Shown piece by piece: positions 185 to 41,763 of a DNA stretch of 64,000 bases. The notes under the pieces are model-generated. The model had not been told where the DNA came from and did no database searches. It saw only the letters and a list, made by a program, of their open reading frames with translations. A program made the translations under genes and the position numbers. Position 1 is the stretch's first letter, and each line of letters opens with the position of its first letter. The stretch is taken from the NCBI RefSeq assembly GCF_003856975.1, contig NZ_CP033107.1, positions 1,054,001 through 1,118,000 on the forward strand, written 5' to 3'. The DNA is from Plantibacter sp. PA-3-X8 (GTDB taxonomy: Bacteria; Actinomycetota; Actinomycetes; Actinomycetales; Microbacteriaceae).

Positions 185-200
185 TGCTCCCCCTCTTCGT

Positions 201-287
201 TTCCGAAACGTTACCGGACTTCGCTCTTGACGCTACACCGATCCCAGGCTAGCTTTACCGAAAGGCGTTTCGACAGTTTCGAAAACC
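201..287. promoter_or_regulatory. Probable LacI-family operator cluster
   Basis: Three related sites built from CGAAA/TTTCG half-sites: CCGAAACGTTACC near 204-216, an inverted pair CGAAA-GGCG-TTTCG at 259-272, and the perfect palindrome TTTCGAAA at 277-284. The last two lie just downstream of the predicted -10, where a bound repressor would block transcription. Similar CGAAAC/GTTTCG sites flank the second LacI gene near 60.6 kb. Confidence 0.55.
227..255 (+). promoter_or_regulatory. Sigma-70 type promoter of the sugar transport/GH127 operon
   Basis: TTGACG at 227-232 and TAGCTT at 250-255 are separated by 17 bp. This is the best -35/-10 pair upstream of the solute-binding protein gene, and LacI-like sites follow directly after the -10. 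Confidence 0.6.
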
Positions 288-34019: not shown

Positions 34020-34063
34020 TGTTTTCAGTGCACCTGGGCGCAGGGTTCACACCCCGGAAACAC

Positions 34064-34117
34064 TTTCGACACTGCATCGAAACTCCACCCACGCATACTT
34101 TCAATACAGTATCGAAA
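34064..34117. promoter_or_regulatory. Two AmtR-like operators before glnT
   Basis: Two 19-bp palindromes, TTTCGAcactgcaTCGAAA (34064-34082) and TTTCaATACaGTATcGAAA (34099-34117), lie 35 bp apart, 43-96 bp before the ATG. A third copy precedes amt. The layout resembles the AmtR box of corynebacteria (TTTCTAT-N6-ATAGA-like), and an AmtR-like TetR gene is in the same cluster. Confidence 0.7.
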
Positions 34118-34159
34118 TGAGTCGCGGCGAGGGCAGCGACGTAACCGGAGGAGCATCCA

Positions 34160-35521
34160 ATGACCGTCGTCGAGACCGTTACCACCGTGGAGTCCGTCCG
34201 CGGCCGCCTGCAGGAGGCCGGCGTCAAGTACGCGATGGCGAGCTTCGTGGACATGCACGGCAGCATCAAGACCAAGTTCGTCCCGCTGTCGCACCTCGAG
34301 CGCATGGCCGGGGGATCGGAGCTCTTCACGGGGGCCGCGCTCGACGGCCTCCCGCAGGCGATCAGCGACGAGGAGCTCTCCGCTCGCCCCGACCTCGACA
34401 GCGCCGTGCAGTTGCCGTGGCGGAAGGACGTCGCCTTCTTCGCGAGCGACCTCTACACGAAGGGCGAGCCGTTCGAGGCGGCGTCGCGGAACATCCTCAA
34501 GCGTCAGCTCGATGCGGCGGCTGAGATGGGCTTCACCTTCAACCTCGGGATCGAGACCGAGTTCTTCGTCCTGAAGGACACCCCGGAGGGTGTGACCGAG
34601 GTCAGCGACCGCGACGACCTCGCGAAGCCCTGCTACACGGCGACCGCGGCGCTCGACAACCTCGATTGGCTCACCGAGCTGGTCGAGGCGATGACCGAGA
34701 TGGGCTGGGGCGTGTACTCGTTCGACCACGAGGACGCCCCGGGGCAGTTCGAGATCGACTTCAACTACTCAGACGCGCTCACCATGGCGGACCGCGCCGT
34801 CTTCTTCCGGCTCATGGCCAACGAGATCGTCCGCAAGCACGGCTACTTCGCGACCTTCATGCCGAAGCCCTTCGCCGACCGCAGCGGCTCGGGTGCGCAC
34901 TTCAACATGTCGCTCGCCGACATCGAGACCGGTGAGAACCTGTTCGAGACCGACGACGACCCACGTGGTTGCGGTATCTCGGAGCTCGGCTACAAGTTCA
35001 TCGCCGGTGTCCTCAAGCACGCGCCGGCGCTCTCTGCGGTCATCGCGCCGACGGTCAACAGCTACAAGCGCCTCGTGCGTCAGGGCAGCATGTCGGGCTC
35101 GACCTGGGCGCCGGTGTTCGTGAGCTACGGCAACAACAACCGCACCAACATGCTCCGCGTGCCCCTGCAGGGTGGCCGCGTGGAGTGCCGTGCGGCCGAC
35201 ATCAGCTGCAACCCGTACCTCGGTGCCGCCCTCATCCTCGCTGCTGGCCTCGAGGGCATCCGTGAGGACCTCGACCCGGGTGCGCCGCACACCGAGAACA
35301 TGTACGACTACACCGAGGCGGAGGTCGCGCAGCTCGGCATCGGCATGCTGCCCCGCAGCCTCGGCGAGGCCGTCGACGAGTTCGCGACCGACTCGCTGTC
35401 GCGCTCGGTGTTCGGTGACGCGATGTACGACGCGTTCATCGACTACAAGCGCCAGGAGTGGAACGAGTACCAGGCGCACGTGTCGGACTGGGAGACCGCC
35501 CGCTACCTGAAGTTCTTCTGA
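34160..35521 (+). CDS. glnT: Glutamine synthetase family, GlnT type
   Basis: 453 aa, about the size of GlnT (TIGR03105-like) and shorter than GlnA. Metal and active-site features visible: GIETEFFVL near residue 131, QFEIDFNYSDAL near 197, GSGAHFNMSL near 246, and NNNRTNMLRVP near 324. It lacks the adenylylation-tyrosine context of GSI-beta. The enzyme joins ammonia or an amine to glutamate. GGAGG supports ATG 34160. Paired AmtR-like operators point to induction under nitrogen limitation; gamma-glutamyl-amide synthesis is an alternative role. Confidence 0.82.
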   Translation: MTVVETVTTVESVRGRLQEAGVKYAMASFVDMHGSIKTKFVPLSHLERMAGGSELFTGAALDGLPQAISDEELSARPDLDSAVQLPWRKDVAFFASDLYTKGEPFEAASRNILKRQLDAAAEMGFTFNLGIETEFFVLKDTPEGVTEVSDRDDLAKPCYTATAALDNLDWLTELVEAMTEMGWGVYSFDHEDAPGQFEIDFNYSDALTMADRAVFFRLMANEIVRKHGYFATFMPKPFADRSGSGAHFNMSLADIETGENLFETDDDPRGCGISELGYKFIAGVLKHAPALSAVIAPTVNSYKRLVRQGSMSGSTWAPVFVSYGNNNRTNMLRVPLQGGRVECRAADISCNPYLGAALILAAGLEGIREDLDPGAPHTENMYDYTEAEVAQLGIGMLPRSLGEAVDEFATDSLSRSVFGDAMYDAFIDYKRQEWNEYQAHVSDWETARYLKFF

Positions 35522-35526
35522 TCCCG

Positions 35527-36525
35527 ATGCACCAGGTCCTCGACCTCGGGAGGTTCGCGCTGGAGTCCGGCGCGGACCTCCCGGAGGCGCGGCTCGCGTA
35601 CACGACGCAGGGCGCGCTGAACGCCGACGGCGACAACGCCGTCCTGCTCCCGAGCTACTACACCGGGACGCACGCGAGCTACGAGCCGTGGATCGGTCCG
35701 GGTCGGGCGCTCGACCCCGCGGACTGGTTCATCGTCTCGGTGGACCTGTTCGGCAACGGGGTGTCGACCTCGCCGTCGAACGCGGCTGAGGAGGTGCGCG
35801 GGGCCGCGTTCCCCGAGGTCTCGATCGGCGACAACGTGCGCGCGCAGCGGCAGCTCGCCGAACACCTCGGTGTCCGCCGCTGGCGGCTGGTCGCCGGCTG
35901 GTCGATGGGCGCGTTGCAGGCCTACGAGTGGGCGGTGCGGTACCCGGAGTCCGTCGACGCGTTCCTCCCCGTCGCCGGTGCCGCCCGCTGCTCGCCGCAC
36001 AACGCGGTCTTCCTGGCCGGCGTCGAGGCGGCGCTCCGAGCCGACCCGGCGTTCGACGACGGGCGCTACACGACACCGCCGCGGGCCGGACTCCGCGCAT
36101 TCGGGACGGTGTATGCGGGGTGGGCCTACTCGCAGGCGTTCTTCCGCGACGGCACCTACCGTGAGCTCGGGTACGCCGACGTCGCCGACCTCCTCGAGGA
36201 CTGGGCGGCCGACCACGAGCGGTGGGACGCGAACGACCTGCTCGCGATGCTGCGCACCTGGCAGCGGGCGGATCCCGGGCGAGGGGTCGAGGGCGGGTTG
36301 GCCCTGGCGCTCGGGGGAGTGCGCGCGCGGAGCATCGTCATGCCGTCGTCGGCCGACCTCTACTTCACCGTCGAGGACAACGTCCTGGAGTCGGCGATGA
36401 TGCGTCGGAGCGAGGTGCGGGTCATCGAGTCCGACCTCGGCCATGTGGCGGGGCGGCCTGGGGTGCGTGCCGCCGAGACGGCCGTGATCGAGGCCGCGAT
36501 GCGCGAGCTGCTGGGCGAGGGCTGA
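35527..36525 (+). CDS. MetX/E22-like alpha/beta hydrolase in the glnT operon
   Basis: 332 aa. The fold matches homoserine acetyltransferase-like hydrolases: LPSYYTGTHASYEPW near residue 40, nucleophile elbow AGWSMGALQA (Ser ~123), and a C-terminal ESDLGHVAGRPG with the catalytic His. The strict MetX signature is not complete, so acyl transfer to homoserine is not claimed. It starts 5 bp after glnT and is followed by the AmtR-like gene; a nitrogen-scavenging amide or ester hydrolase is a reasonable guess. Confidence 0.75.
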   Translation: MHQVLDLGRFALESGADLPEARLAYTTQGALNADGDNAVLLPSYYTGTHASYEPWIGPGRALDPADWFIVSVDLFGNGVSTSPSNAAEEVRGAAFPEVSIGDNVRAQRQLAEHLGVRRWRLVAGWSMGALQAYEWAVRYPESVDAFLPVAGAARCSPHNAVFLAGVEAALRADPAFDDGRYTTPPRAGLRAFGTVYAGWAYSQAFFRDGTYRELGYADVADLLEDWAADHERWDANDLLAMLRTWQRADPGRGVEGGLALALGGVRARSIVMPSSADLYFTVEDNVLESAMMRRSEVRVIESDLGHVAGRPGVRAAETAVIEAAMRELLGEG

Positions 36526-36583
36526 GCTGCCGTGCCCGCCCGTAGGATTGGCGGAGGTGTCCGCGAGCAGGGAGTGGTGATCG

Positions 36584-37321
36584 ATGGCCGGCCGCACAGG
36601 AGCATCGCCCGGTCGTCCTCGCGCGAGCGGCATCGCCGCCGAGGATCCTCGTGAGGAGATCATCCAGGTCGCGACCAGGCTGTTCGCCGAGCGCGGGTAC
36701 GAGCGCACGAGTATGACGATGCTGGCCGAGGCGTGCGGGATGAAGCAGTCCTCGCTCTACTACTGGTTCGCGAACAAGCGCGAGGTGCTGCGGGCGACCG
36801 CCGCCTCGAACCGCCAGTCGGTCGGCGCCGCGGAAGCCCTCGGTCCGATCGAGGCTGATGTTCCCGCGAAGCTCTACCGCGTCCTCTACGAGGATGGCGT
36901 CGCGATCTGCGAGGCGCCCTTCGACTACAACGAGATCGAGCGGCTCGCAGCGGAGCATCCCGACGACCTCGCGTCGTTCTGGGACGACTACCGCACGTTG
37001 TTCACGTTCATCGCCGGACTCATCCGCGACGGGGTCGAGCAGGGGACCCTCGTCCTCGGCGGCAGCGAGACGCCGGAGTGGGCGGCAGCGGCGGCACTCC
37101 ACGCCAACGAGGGCATGCAGAAGGCCTACCGCTATGGCTCCGGCGACATCGCCGCCCAGTACCCACCGGTCGAGGCCGCCGAGGGTGCGAGCGAGACGGA
37201 CCGCATCCGGGCCTTCGCGCGGCGCACCGCCTCCGCCACCCTCCACAGCCTCCTCGTCGACCGCGCTGCGCTCGCCGACGTCGAACGGGCTGCACTCCAG
37301 CTCGACCTCGCGGCCGCCTAA
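36584..37321 (+). CDS. TetR-family regulator, AmtR-like
   Basis: 245 aa. After GRPRAS comes DPREEIIQVATRLFAERG and CGMKQSSLYYWFANKREVL, closely following the N-terminus of corynebacterial AmtR (GRPR, DPREEIL, RQASLYYHFPSK). The C-terminal ligand domain diverges. It lies just after glnT and its hydrolase. Together with the three matching operators before glnT and amt, this makes it the likely nitrogen regulator; GlnK contact is unproven. Confidence 0.78.
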   Translation: MAGRTGASPGRPRASGIAAEDPREEIIQVATRLFAERGYERTSMTMLAEACGMKQSSLYYWFANKREVLRATAASNRQSVGAAEALGPIEADVPAKLYRVLYEDGVAICEAPFDYNEIERLAAEHPDDLASFWDDYRTLFTFIAGLIRDGVEQGTLVLGGSETPEWAAAAALHANEGMQKAYRYGSGDIAAQYPPVEAAEGASETDRIRAFARRTASATLHSLLVDRAALADVERAALQLDLAAA

Positions 37322-37554
37322 CCCGCCGGAGACTCGTCCTCAGCCGGGGCGTCCGTCGAGTGGTTCCGACGTCCCGACCGCAGGCTTGAGGTGATGACGG
37401 TCAGCGCGAGCGAGACCTGCACTAGTGCGAGCACGATCTGGAACCAGTCTCGACTCGTCCCCGACCAGTTCGAGACGATGATCCAGAGCTGCACGGCCAC
37501 GAGCGCCAAGAAGAGGACGGCCGCCACGAGCCACAGCTTGCCAGAGCGGGTCAT
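37318..37554 (-). CDS. Small two-helix membrane protein
   Basis: 78 aa with hydrophobic segments at ~6-26 and ~40-56 and an acidic, hydrophilic C-terminus. Its ATG overlaps the stop of the gene before it, so the two form a small operon. Its own stop overlaps that of the convergent TetR gene. No family known. Confidence 0.6.
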   Translation of the reverse strand: MTRSGKLWLVAAVLFLALVAVQLWIIVSNWSGTSRDWFQIVLALVQVSLALTVITSSLRSGRRNHSTDAPAEDESPAG

Positions 37555-37799
37555 CGGCCGTCTCCGGTATCGGTCCGGGCGGCGTCGATGGGTGCGTGTT
37601 TCGGGAGCCGGCACGCCTGGATCAACACAACCGCGCCGAGGACGATCTGCGCGGCACCCAGGATGACCCAGAACAGATAGCCCTGACTGTCAGCGCCGGC
37701 GGGCAACCTGAACGCGAGTTGCACGACACCGAGGGTCGCCCACGTCCATCCCAGGATCAGCCGTGGCGTCCGGTACTGGGGATCGTTCGCCTTGATCAT
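37551..37799 (-). CDS. Small membrane protein, unknown function
   Basis: 82 aa, two hydrophobic segments (~13-30 and ~40-60: VILGAAQIVLGAVVLIQACR). A ~20-residue hydrophilic tail follows. It overlaps the next membrane gene by 4 bp. It may form a complex with that protein; nothing more can be said. Confidence 0.6.
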   Translation of the reverse strand: MIKANDPQYRTPRLILGWTWATLGVVQLAFRLPAGADSQGYLFWVILGAAQIVLGAVVLIQACRLPKHAPIDAARTDTGDGR

Positions 37800-37895
37800 G
37801 CGAGCAGCCTATGCTGCGCCTGACAAGCGCGCAGCGAGAGAACGCTGAGCGCTTGTGCGTCGCCTGTCCGGTCTCGGCCTCGATACCGTTGTTTC

Positions 37896-38432
37896 ATGAC
37901 GCGCGACGTGGTGGGGCAGGGGCGGTGGCACGCGTTGGAGCATCTCCGGTGGATCGATGGCGATGCGGACGTGTGGAGCATGCTGCAGGATCACGCGGCG
38001 CTCAGTGCGATCGTCACGGCACTGGCTGATCTCGCCGGGCGCGACCGGCCGGACTGCATCGTGGGTATCGAGTCACGCGGTTTCGTTCTGGCGCCAGCGG
38101 TGGCGGTCGCCTTGGGCATCGGGTTCGTGGCCGTCAGAAAGGATGGAGCCATGTTCCCCGGCTCGTTGATCAGCAGGCGGACCGAGGTCGACTACCGAGG
38201 GCAGCAACGCACGCTGTCGATGCGCCGTGATCACCTGCAGCCTGGGGCTCGACTCGTTCTGGTCGATGACTGGGTGGAAACCGGAAGCCAGGCTCTGGTC
38301 GTCGCGGAGCTCGCGAAGGAGGGTGGGGCCGAGGTCGTGTCAGTGGTCACCATCGTCGATGAGGCAAGTGACACTGCGCGGCACCGGCTTCCGCCGATCC
38401 ACTCGCTCGTGACGGGTGCCGATCTCCCATGA
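37896..38432 (+). CDS. Adenine-phosphoribosyltransferase-like protein
   Basis: 178 aa type I phosphoribosyltransferase. CIVGIESRGFVLAPAVA (~54-70) and the PRPP loop LVLVDDWVETGSQA (~120-133) are clear, with KDGAMFPGSLI as flexible loop. Several features fit Apt, but the sequence is divergent enough that the base it uses is unsure. TACCGT is exactly 6 nt before ATG 37896, so it is probably leaderless. Confidence 0.78.
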   Translation: MTRDVVGQGRWHALEHLRWIDGDADVWSMLQDHAALSAIVTALADLAGRDRPDCIVGIESRGFVLAPAVAVALGIGFVAVRKDGAMFPGSLISRRTEVDYRGQQRTLSMRRDHLQPGARLVLVDDWVETGSQALVVAELAKEGGAEVVSVVTIVDEASDTARHRLPPIHSLVTGADLP

Positions 38433-38529
38433 TCAGCTTCGGCCGATCACAGAGGAGACGCTCTCCGCGCCTGACCAGAAGGCTGGACACTCCGGCCGGT
38501 GTACTCGTGCTCCCGCATACAGTCGAGGA

Positions 38530-38916
38530 ATGTTCGTTCGCTTCCAGAGTGCCGTTCCGAATCGAAACGGCCGGTTCCCCGGTGTGTTCGCGATGGCGAA
38601 CGGGCTGCACGACACCGGGCGGCTGTCGGGGGAGGACGCAGCATGGTGGCGCCAGAGCAACGACCGGCTGAACGCCGCATACGCGAACCCGTCCGTTGCC
38701 TCACCGGGTAGTTTCGAACACCCTGGCGCACGATCGTGGTTCAAGGAGACGGCGATCGATCTCCTCACGCTCACTGGCGGCTATCTCGCACTCCTCGATC
38801 GATACGACATCCCCTGGGTCGAGCTCCGAACGATGATGCCGGGCCGCCTCACCTATGAGGACGACGTGCAGATCGTCGCCGTTCCGTTCCGGTACCCCGA
38901 CGACTGGCCTCTGTGA
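38530..38916 (+). CDS. Conserved hypothetical protein
   Basis: 128 aa soluble protein rich in aromatic residues (EDAAWWRQSNDRLN, ARSWFKETAIDLL, VPFRYPDDWPL). TACAGT lies 6 nt before ATG 38530 with no ribosome site, which supports this start over an in-frame upstream one. No recognised domain. Confidence 0.55.
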   Translation: MFVRFQSAVPNRNGRFPGVFAMANGLHDTGRLSGEDAAWWRQSNDRLNAAYANPSVASPGSFEHPGARSWFKETAIDLLTLTGGYLALLDRYDIPWVELRTMMPGRLTYEDDVQIVAVPFRYPDDWPL

Positions 38917-38944
38917 CGCCCATCGCCTTGCGTCGAGTGTCGGG

Positions 38945-39483
38945 TCAGGGAGATGGGTGCCTCGCGACAACCTCTCGGATGAACGACTCTTTGCCGCGGT
39001 TGTAGTCCGCGCGTTCTGAAACGGTCGTCGCCAATCCTCGTTTGATGCGCTCGTACTCGCGTGCCAGACCAGGATTCCCTCTCGAAGAGCGTCTCGGAAG
39101 GCGAGGTGTTCCGCGGCCCAGACCGAGCCCATTCCGCAGACGTGGATGTGCACATTCCGCGGGCGTCCCGCGGGCGGTCGCAGGAAGCGGAAATTCGCAC
39201 CGCGAGCGCGGAGAACCATCCCCAGTTCTTCCAGGGCGGGTAGGTAGGCGGGTTCATCTTCGATGTCCGGCACTTGGATCTGCATGTCGATGACCGGTTT
39301 GGCGGCAAGTCCGGGCACCGCGGTCGAACCGACGTGATCGACGTGGGCGGGGAGGGGGTGGAGCGAGTCCTTGAGCAGGTCTTCCCAGTGCCTGCCCATG
39401 TCGGCCCAATCGTCGGATGCGTCGTGGATCTCGACCGCTTCCTCGATGGGCTGGTCGAACCACTCAACGTCGACGTCGTCCAT
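38945..39483 (-). pseudogene. GrpB/UPF0157 family protein, frameshifted
   Basis: The GrpB nucleotidyltransferase-like domain reads well from ATG 39483 (LPAHVDHVGSTAVPGLAAKP, VIDMQIQVPD, NVHIHVCGMGS) up to HLAFRDALR. There the frame breaks near 39075-39090. Shifting by one base restores the expected end: NPGLAREYERIKRGLA, then ADYNRGKESFIREV and a TGA at 38945. The total of 539 bases equals 180 codons minus one base. So a single-base loss inactivates the gene, or the sequence has an error. Without correction it would read on into unrelated residues. Confidence 0.82.
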
Positions 39484-39552
39484 CTTTCAAGTCTGCCGAG
39501 GGGCAAAAGCCGACCGGACCTGACACGCGATCCCGTAACGAACACGAAACGG

Positions 39553-39571
39553 ATTCGATACTGCATTGAAA
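39553..39571. promoter_or_regulatory. AmtR-like operator before amt
   Basis: aTTCGATACTGCATTGAAA matches the 19-bp glnT operators (consensus TTTCGATACTGCATCGAAA) with two or three changes. It lies 80 bp before the amt ATG, between amt and the divergent GrpB gene. Confidence 0.65.
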
Positions 39572-39650
39572 CCGGTCGTCACGACAATTGGATGACCTAT
39601 TGAAAATGCGGTCGTCCGTTTCGGATCCCGCGCGAACCCTGGAGGTCCGA

Positions 39651-40970
39651 ATGGACACGGCTGCAATCGCGGGCAACACGGCATGGCTCCTGACGGCGGT
39701 GGTGGCCGTGGCGCTCATGCTGCCCGGCCTGGCGATGTTCTACGGCGGGATGGTCAGCCGTCGCGTCACCATGAACATGATGATGATGATCTTCGCGTCG
39801 TTCTGTCTCGTCGGGATCCTCTGGGTGGCCTTCGGCTACTCGATGGTGTTCGGGGACAGCCTCGGCGGCCTCGGACTCGTCGGCGACCCGACCGAGTACC
39901 CGGGTCTCGGCCAACTGCTCGTCGCGCCGGAGGGGAGTGCACTGCCGCCGCTCGCGCTCGCCGCACTCCACCTGATGTTCGCCGGTCTCACGATCGGGAT
40001 CGTCGCCGGAGCGGCCGCCGGTCGGATGAAGTTCAGCGCGTGGATGGTCTTCGCCGGCGTCTGGTCGACGCTCGTCTACTTCCCGGTCGCGCACTGGGTC
40101 TTCGCCTTCGACTCCGCTGACGGCAGCGTGCAGGGCGGGTGGCTCGCCAACACCATCGGCTCGATCGACTACGCCGGCAGTACCGCGATCCACGTCAACT
40201 CCGGGGTCGCCGCCCTCGCACTCGCCATCGTCCTCGGCAAGCGCAACGGCTTCCCGTCGCAGCCCAAGGCGCACAGCCTCCCGCTCACCCTGCTCGGCGC
40301 CGGACTCCTCTTCGTCGGGTGGATCGGCTTCGACGGCAGCGCCCTCGGTGCGGCCGACAACAACGCCGCCGTCGCGGTCTTCAACACCGTCGCCGCCACC
40401 TGCGCCGGCGTCATCGTCTGGCTCGTCGTCGAGAAGCTGCGCGACGGTCACCCGACCACGCTGGGCGCCTGCTCGGGTGCGATCGCCGCACTCGTCGCCA
40501 TCACGCCCTCCTGCGGCGCGGTCACCCCGCTCGGCTCGCTCGCGATCGGCGCCGCCGCCGCGGTCGTCTGCTACTTCGCCGTCAGCCTCAAGGTCCGCTT
40601 CGGCTTCGACGACGCCCTCGACGTCACCGCCCTCCACTTCGTCGGCGGCGTCGTCGGGGGTCTCCTCATCGGTGTCCTCGCGGTGCCGCTCGCGCCCAGC
40701 GGCGGCGAGGGACTCCTCGCGGGCGGCGGCTTCCTCCTCCTCGGCAAGCAGGCGCTCGCGATCGTGGCCGTCTTCGCCTACACCTTCACCATCACCTGGG
40801 TGCTCGCCAAGGTCCTCGACAAGACGATGGGCATCCGAGTGTCGGCCGAGACCGAGGCGCAGGGGCTCGACGTCGCCCTCCACGCGGAGAACGCGTACGA
40901 GATCAGCACGCACGAGGCGCTCGCCCCGCGCGGGCACGCCGAGCCGAAGGTCCCGGCCGTCGTCGAGTAG
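39651..40970 (+). CDS. amt: Ammonium transporter (Amt)
   Basis: 439 aa with about eleven membrane segments. AMFYGGMVSRRVTMNMM (~31-47) is the family signature after helix 1; later DSADGSVQGGW and the pore-lining SGVAALALAIVLG are present, with His in TALHFVGGVVGG near 343. GGAGG supports ATG 39651. An AmtR-like palindrome in the promoter matches those before glnT, giving a two-site nitrogen regulon in this window. No glnK follows, unlike in many Amt operons. Confidence 0.92.
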   Translation: MDTAAIAGNTAWLLTAVVAVALMLPGLAMFYGGMVSRRVTMNMMMMIFASFCLVGILWVAFGYSMVFGDSLGGLGLVGDPTEYPGLGQLLVAPEGSALPPLALAALHLMFAGLTIGIVAGAAAGRMKFSAWMVFAGVWSTLVYFPVAHWVFAFDSADGSVQGGWLANTIGSIDYAGSTAIHVNSGVAALALAIVLGKRNGFPSQPKAHSLPLTLLGAGLLFVGWIGFDGSALGAADNNAAVAVFNTVAATCAGVIVWLVVEKLRDGHPTTLGACSGAIAALVAITPSCGAVTPLGSLAIGAAAAVVCYFAVSLKVRFGFDDALDVTALHFVGGVVGGLLIGVLAVPLAPSGGEGLLAGGGFLLLGKQALAIVAVFAYTFTITWVLAKVLDKTMGIRVSAETEAQGLDVALHAENAYEISTHEALAPRGHAEPKVPAVVE

Positions 40971-41082: not shown

Positions 41083-41763
41083 ATGGACGTCATCAACGAA
41101 CTCATCCTCGGCGCCGTGACCTCACCATGGCTCTACCTGGTGATGTTCGCAGCGGCCGTGATCGACGGCTTCTTCCCGCCGATCCCCAGCGAGACGGTGC
41201 TCGTCGCCGCCGCGGCGGTCGCCGTCTCGACCGGTGGGTCGAACCTCCTGCTGCTCTGCGCCGTCGCGGCGGTGGGAGCGGCGATCGGTGACAACCTCGC
41301 CTACCTCATCGGCCGTGGCGTCGGCACGACCCGCTTCGCCTGGATGCGGCGTCCGCGCATCGCCGCGGCCTTCGACCGGGCCGGGCGGACCCTCGGCCGG
41401 CGGGGCGCGCCGCTCATCCTGGGTGCGCGCTACATCCCCGTCGGACGGGTCGCCGTCAACATGTCGGCGGGTGCCCTCCGGTACCCGTGGCGTCGTTTCC
41501 TGCCTCTGAGCATCATCGGTGGCGTGACCTGGGCCGCCTACAGCGCGCTCATCGGCGTCGTGGCCGGGAAGCTCTTCGAGGACCAGCCGTTCCTCAGCTC
41601 CGTCATCGGGGTCGCCGTGGCGCTCGTCCTCGGTCTCGTCGTCGACCGGGTCGCAGCGGCGCGTCGTCGTCGTCGCGAGCGCTCGGAGGCCGCTGCCGGG
41701 GCGAGTGGGGCCGAGGAGGCGGAGGCGGACGACCACCCCGTCCTGGTGCTGGTGGGAGAATGA
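41083..41763 (+). CDS. DedA-family membrane protein
   Basis: 226 aa. The DedA signature is visible in FFPPIPSETVLVAAAA near residue 30, GDNLAYLIGRG near 70, and GARYIPVGRVAVNMSAGA near 112, with a WAAYSALIG motif near 150. DedA proteins are implicated in lipid-carrier or phospholipid scrambling across the membrane. TAGCGT lies 6 nt before ATG 41083, so the operon is probably leaderless. It overlaps the histidine kinase start (ATGA), linking it to the two-component system. Confidence 0.88.
   Translation: MDVINELILGAVTSPWLYLVMFAAAVIDGFFPPIPSETVLVAAAAVAVSTGGSNLLLLCAVAAVGAAIGDNLAYLIGRGVGTTRFAWMRRPRIAAAFDRAGRTLGRRGAPLILGARYIPVGRVAVNMSAGALRYPWRRFLPLSIIGGVTWAAYSALIGVVAGKLFEDQPFLSSVIGVAVALVLGLVVDRVAAARRRRRERSEAAAGASGAEEAEADDHPVLVLVGE

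Follow-up and report, generated by a model that had tools for sequence, protein, structure and literature searches.

Predicted composite promoters for GlnR and an AmtR-like TetR regulator at a rare glnT-amt module in Plantibacter

Among the closest described systems, quoted here and below from excerpts of the cited papers, AmtR of Corynebacterium glutamicum is a TetR-family regulator that recognizes a CTAT-N6-ATAG box and is released by GlnK (PMC8864220, PMC9397018). AmtR of Mycobacterium smegmatis is subordinate to GlnR and controls the urea carboxylase operon (PMC4222082). In the same species, amt1 (msmeg_6259) and glnT (msmeg_6260) both appear in a table of wild-type and glnR-mutant transcriptomes (PMC4222082), and binding of GlnR upstream of amt1 has been reported (PMC4222082, PMC3662644). 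Here, we describe a locus in Plantibacter sp. PA-3-X8, a soil bacterium associated with plants, in which glnT, a MetX-like hydrolase gene, tetR, several small genes and amt follow each other in this order. The locus was analyzed within a 64,000-nucleotide stretch (NZ_CP033107.1, positions 1,054,001 to 1,118,000; hereafter the window) of a 4.08-Mb single-contig genome. We propose, with a probability of roughly three in four, that glnT and amt have composite promoters, activated by GlnR and repressed by the AmtR-like TetR protein, which control a rare module for amine or ammonium uptake and ligation.

An earlier reading of the letters of this DNA, made without database searches (the sequence-only reading), had reported three palindromes of 19 bp, two before glnT and one before amt. 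All three were confirmed, with none expected by chance. The 19-mer given in that reading, searched with up to three mismatches, matched only these three sites in the window, and 100 shuffles yielded no match. A scan of the whole genome with TTTCGATACNGTATCGAAA (up to three mismatches) returned four places, namely the same three sites and position 667653, and the reversed control pattern had no match anywhere in the genome. Position 667653 falls between two genes named by eye as dnaB and rplI; the match there has no link to nitrogen and was treated as a chance occurrence. The statement that such sites are not seen elsewhere in the window held for this 19-mer, but the consensus TTTCRATANNNTATYGAAA derived from relatives (up to three mismatches, as in all searches with it below) detected a fourth, weaker site at 39587-39605, and none beyond these four. 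Each of the two promoters carries one tandem pair of operators, spaced by 35 bp before glnT and by 34 bp before amt. All four operators and both spacings are kept in seven of seven Plantibacter-type genomes, the present one included. A shorter pattern without the core, TTTCGATN5ATCGAAA (up to two mismatches), was found in 133 of 149 genomes of the family and at six places in the genome itself; it is frequent by chance, and the specificity therefore rests on the full 19-mer. That short, relaxed versions are common in genomes would fit palindromes that arose in the promoters by chance, but with none expected in the window and the same places conserved across several genera and families, this explanation is already contradicted and we regard it as extremely improbable.

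The operator was observed together with one subfamily of TetR genes. Of the 20 subfamily loci, which span 384 kb, 19 carry TTTCRATANNNTATYGAAA, with 52 sites in total. Near-identical Plantibacter sequences account for seven loci, and without them the operator was present at 12 of 13 (24 sites in 241 kb). No match was found at 17 loci (330 kb) with canonical AmtR or other TetR genes, a mixed control in which L103, L111, L112 and L114 fall outside the AmtR clade and some loci are absent from the tree described below. Another 47 loci formed a biased control, since 30 of them had been picked for matching a similar pattern; an operator site was found at seven of the 47, all among those 30. The strongest indication that the operator goes with TetR rather than with glnT comes from L098 and L099, where an exact operator lies 5' of a Creatininase-family gene; the cluster around this gene also has the subfamily TetR, and no glnT occurs in 20 kb.

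The TetR gene was found at the position reported earlier (Table 1). The N-terminal helix-turn-helix domain TetR_N (PF00440) scored 54.4 bits against a cut-off of 24, and the five best solved relatives by sequence are AmtR chains, including 5dxz, 5dy0 and 5dy1. AmtR was also the top Foldseek match of the structural model (predicted local distance difference test score 87.5), although VIA-align tied AmtR with other TetR proteins. When L108, a canonical AmtR from the same family (5e57, E 6.9e-41), was used as a probe, its best match in the genome was the window TetR (E 5e-11). These similarities would suit a true AmtR regulon of the corynebacterial type, in which the TetR protein is the global AmtR, released by GlnK, and the palindromes are AmtR boxes. 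However, the AmtR sequences (including 5mqq and 5e57) formed a 100/100 group of ten in a 31-row tree, and this group excluded the window TetR. Canonical AmtR boxes (20-bp forms; CTAT-N6-ATAG, TTTCTGTCG/CGACAGAAA) had no match in the window at up to three mismatches, the palindrome was limited to two promoters and one unlinked place in the strict genome scan, and the genome also has a GlnR. A corynebacterial-type regulon is thus decidedly unlikely. At seven of 20 loci with AmtR-like matches (L102, L104-L108, L110), sites of the TTTCTGTCG/CGACAGAAA type are found close to the TetR gene instead. The TetR subfamily was not recovered as one clade in the 31-row tree (two changes; 9% of bootstrap trees).

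The suggestion in the sequence-only reading that regulator and sites are of the AmtR type is therefore supported for the resemblance of the TetR protein, but not for its clade or for the boxes. Its proposal of a small nitrogen regulon is supported by the shared operator, the two target promoters of the strict scan, the AmtR-related TetR gene between them and the relatives that have the same operator. The system shares with C. glutamicum AmtR (PMC8864220, PMC9397018, as far as the excerpts describe it) the TetR-family fold, a related helix-turn-helix, amt as a target and a likely role of the regulator as a repressor. It differs in the clade of the regulator, in the 19-bp operator, in having two target promoters by the strict scan and in the additional presence of GlnR.

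The statement that no GlnR site was seen proved wrong, since each operator pair has a GlnR box on its 5' side (39535-39550 and 34046-34061) and the genome encodes a GlnR. The protein, L137, was chosen by eye among 17 PF00486 matches of the genome. One of its solved relatives is 4o1h, 'Transcription regulator GlnR' (E 1.7e-25), and its top match is 8hih (E 1.4e-77); 8hih and 8hig, the top structure matches, are entries that we take to be GlnR complexes. Judged by these relatives, L137 is GlnR. Boxes were scored against the pattern [GT]TNAC-N6-G[AC]AAC, with consensus forms taken from the excerpted review PMC10704036. The glnT box has one mismatch to GTNAC-N6-GAAAC. Boxes with one mismatch occur seven times in the window as compared to 6.06 expected from shuffles, and because they are as frequent as in shuffled DNA, the evidence for GlnR lies in fixed position and conservation and not in the count. 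The stricter form GTNAC-N6-GMAACA had no match in the window, and neither of the two boxes fits it. An exact match to GTNAC-N6-GAAAC at 199-214 (minus strand) has no obvious nitrogen gene downstream and is probably due to chance. By eye, the genes next to it, on the opposite strand, look like an operon for a sugar ABC transporter.

Thirteen promoters from eight genomes were compared, and 12 of them have a GlnR box scoring at least 8/9 that is placed at -54 to -52 relative to the proximal operator. In this set, one Plantibacter-type genome represents the genus, and the other six show the same layout; L098-L101, L136 and L134 were left out, and L132 was not counted as it is an apparent duplicate of L063. 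The background rate of such boxes is 1.3e-4 per position. In shuffled upstream DNA (up to 90 bp, 2000 rounds), the mean number of promoters with a positioned box was 0.02 and the maximum was one. In 11 of the 13 promoters, the first T of the proximal operator is also the last base of a hexamer of the form xANNNT, and the other two fit with a shift of 1 bp. If this hexamer is the -10 element, transcription would start within the proximal operator, and the centre of the GlnR box would be near -52.

In the window, the first and second GlnR-like boxes are arranged in the order a-b-a-b with 6-bp gaps, as described for GlnR in Streptomyces (PMC10704036, excerpt), and GlnR-like half sites are located inside the operators. 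These features would also be expected if the palindromes were GlnR sites only, forming an a-b-a-b array, and the TetR protein controlled something else. Against this, the left arm TTTC is mostly kept although it falls in the unspecified spacer of GlnR, exact operators without a GlnR box are found beside subfamily TetRs (L098, L099), and the proximal sites are placed either on the -10-like element or 3' of it. We consider an explanation by GlnR alone unlikely. The second GlnR-like box, in turn, need not be a mere by-product of the operator, since it persists, scoring 7 to 8 of 9, where the palindrome is missing, namely in L055, in the glnT promoter of L063 and in L135.

In the composite promoters that we propose, nitrogen starvation would bring GlnR to a box about 50 bp before the start, and glnT and amt would be activated. 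The 19-bp operators would be the binding sites of the AmtR-like TetR from the same cluster. Its presence on the proximal operator, which overlaps both the -10-like element and the presumed start, would keep transcription from being initiated. In promoters that have a distal operator, this site overlaps the second GlnR-like box, so that GlnR and TetR may compete there. Release of TetR would probably depend on a signal from the substrate of the module (a small amine, ammonium or a gamma-glutamyl product) or on a PII protein, as for AmtR. With tetR located 3' of glnT in Plantibacter, the regulator may also control its own expression. A sharper version, in which the patchy and rare module obeys the logic GlnR (starvation) AND NOT TetR (released by an amine or gamma-glutamyl product) through operators that cover the second GlnR box as well as the -10 element and start, is more tentative, and we hold it to be possible at somewhat less than even odds. 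If true, such a gate would limit amine uptake by Amt and GmaS-like ligation to starved cells with a supply of the amine.

Composite control of this kind has a published precedent, as far as the excerpts of PMC4222082 go, in the position of M. smegmatis AmtR under GlnR and in the presence of amt1 and glnT in the glnR table. The present system resembles M. smegmatis AmtR in being a small TetR regulon nested in a GlnR network, but the target is the urea carboxylase operon there, and glnT and amt here. It resembles the M. smegmatis amt1/glnT pair, with its neighbouring locus numbers, in combining amt with a type III glutamine synthetase gene. The MetX-like hydrolase and TetR genes are partners found here, and no TetR operator is described in the excerpts for the mycobacterial pair.

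Several observations weigh against the proposed composite control. The GlnR offset was noticed in these promoters before it was tested, although the effect is judged to be far beyond what such a choice could produce. One of the 13 promoters, that of G613 (L097), reaches only 6/9 at the GlnR position. No GlnR box is present at -53 from the operator in L098, L099, L100, L101 or L136; in L100 and L101 the glnT promoter has a 9/9 box at another spacing, whereas none at 8/9 was seen in the stretches read of L098, L099 and L136. The composite layout is thus limited to a subset, since L097-L101 and L136 do not have the box at that spacing. The distal operator, as read by eye across the 13 promoters, is clear in six, degenerate in two and absent in five. 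The operator itself contains a GlnR-like GAYAC-N6-GAAAC, so that operator and GlnR signals are partly confounded. L134, a contig of 3.2 kb, is the sole locus of the TetR subfamily without an operator site, and some of the 52 sites lie far from both TetR and the studied promoter (L098 6341, L135 7582, L136 10528) and may be due to chance.

Table 1. Genes and predicted regulatory sites of the glnT-amt module, in window coordinates.
Feature	Position	Strand	Sequence or basis
GlnR box (a1-b1), glnT promoter	34046-34061	+	TTCACACCCCGGAAAC; 9/9 of [GT]TNAC-N6-G[AC]AAC; 53 bp before proximal operator
Distal TetR operator of glnT (predicted)	34064-34082	.	TTTCGACACTGCATCGAAA; palindrome
Second GlnR-like box, glnT promoter	34068-34083		GACACTGCATCGAAAC; 8/9; overlaps distal operator
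-10-like hexamer, glnT (putative)	34094-34099	+	CATACT; last T is first of proximal operator; from aligned position
Proximal TetR operator of glnT (predicted)	34099-34117	.	TTTCAATACAGTATCGAAA; 0 mismatches to TTTCRATANNNTATYGAAA
glnT, type III glutamate-ammonia ligase family, gamma-glutamylmethylamide synthetase-like	34160-35521	+	TIGR03105, 574 bits
MetX-like alpha/beta hydrolase (PRK07581 family)	35527-36525	+	NF005757, 395 bits; 5d6o, E 5.9e-67
AmtR-like TetR-family regulator, presumed repressor	36584-37321	+	PF00440; closest solved relatives AmtR
GlnR box (a1-b1), amt promoter	39535-39550	+	GTAACGAACACGAAAC; exact GTNAC-N6-GAAAC; 52 bp before proximal operator
Distal TetR operator of amt (predicted)	39553-39571	.	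ATTCGATACTGCATTGAAA; palindrome
Second GlnR-like box, amt promoter	39557-39572		GATACTGCATTGAAAC; 8/9; overlaps distal operator
-10-like hexamer, amt (putative)	39583-39588	+	GACAAT; from aligned position
Proximal TetR operator of amt (predicted)	39587-39605	.	ATTGGATGACCTATTGAAA; 3 mismatches to TTTCRATANNNTATYGAAA
amt, Amt/MEP ammonium transporter	39651-40970	+	TIGR00836, 396 bits (open reading frame 39588-40970); 2b2f, E 8.2e-81

The gene called glnT in the sequence-only reading does not look like that of an ordinary ammonium-assimilating glutamine synthetase and resembles gamma-glutamylmethylamide synthetase (GmaS) instead. Its best solved relative is a glutamate--methylamine ligase, 9qur (E 5.8e-124). 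Trp316 and Thr57 are invariant in all seven aligned GlnT proteins, and Thr57 aligns with the ammonia-site Asp of glutamine synthetase. In the excerpt available for GmaS, Trp stands in place of the Glu of the Glu flap and Ala in place of the Asp of the Asp50 loop (PMC7948447). GlnT shares with GmaS (9qur, 7cql) the Trp at the Glu flap and the missing glutamine synthetase Asp, and amine activity is predicted. From these residues, an amine appears to be a more likely substrate of GlnT than ammonium. Directly 3' of amt, no glnK was found; the next open reading frame, at 41083, is DedA-like by eye.

The TetR gene was identified in seven of seven Plantibacter-type genomes and is rare on wider scans, with matches at E <= 1e-20 in four of 149 genomes of the family, which represent two of 78 genera. 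A glnT query (E <= 1e-140) detected exactly the four family genomes that carry the TetR gene. Further scans for TetR detected it in 5 of 396 genomes of the order (E <= 1e-15); the family to which G666 belongs had 5 of 251, and the G621 order 2 of 196. A scan of the class with alignment gave 46 of 393, mostly weaker, AmtR-like matches. Relatives were found in Planctomonas (L020), Prescottella equi (L063), G1026 (L133), G621 (L096), Litorihabitans (L055), G613 (L097), Aeromicrobium (L135), a small contig (L134) and, in two copies each, in G666 and G539 (L098-L101), where the names given for L020, L055 and L135 are inferred. In L020, L063, L133 and L096, the same four genes occur together, with glnT-hydrolase divergent from tetR-amt. 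Among plasmids, one TetR relative was found at E <= 1e-20, on pR1CP1 of Rhodococcus opacus (L136). GlnT relatives on plasmids (E <= 1e-100) amounted to 28 records, which are all proteobacterial and thus of no use as a TetR-free control. One scan of viral contigs with a single peptide pattern gave no TetR relative.

In a literature search with most subscription journals outside its scope, we found no description of the operator or of the TetR subfamily, and AmtR, nitrogen and Microbacteriaceae were not found together. We consider the TetR subfamily, its operator and the composite layout to be new here. The results put forward an operator, open to testing, for a TetR subfamily close to AmtR, and one promoter layout, a GlnR box followed by the operator at a fixed spacing, that is kept across several actinobacterial families. 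They also offer a clean test case for a general starvation activator and a local repressor that share one promoter. As a caution for annotation, a 'glnT' beside amt may indicate amine and not ammonium metabolism.

The surroundings of the module and of its relatives differ among genomes. In L098 and L099 (3.2-10.4 kb), the subfamily TetR is clustered with two Arginase-family genes and a Creatininase-family gene. On the R. opacus plasmid, a glutamine synthetase family gene and a gamma-glutamyl-GABA hydrolase family gene lie near TetR, and an operator-like TATCAATACACTATTGAAA (L136 3816-3834) is located 5' of a helix-turn-helix gene. Among Plantibacter-type genomes, the segment corresponding to 37322-39500 of the window (a phosphoribosyltransferase, a GrpB-like protein and a 166-amino-acid open reading frame) varies in length and content, and the flanking module is conserved. 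Two of these genomes have an interval of about 1.3 kb between the hydrolase gene and tetR (L016 3854-4974; L018 between about 7886 and 9220, known by size only). The L016 insert contains a RES-domain gene (PF08808) behind a 129-amino-acid open reading frame without a Pfam match, a layout similar to that of a toxin-antitoxin pair.

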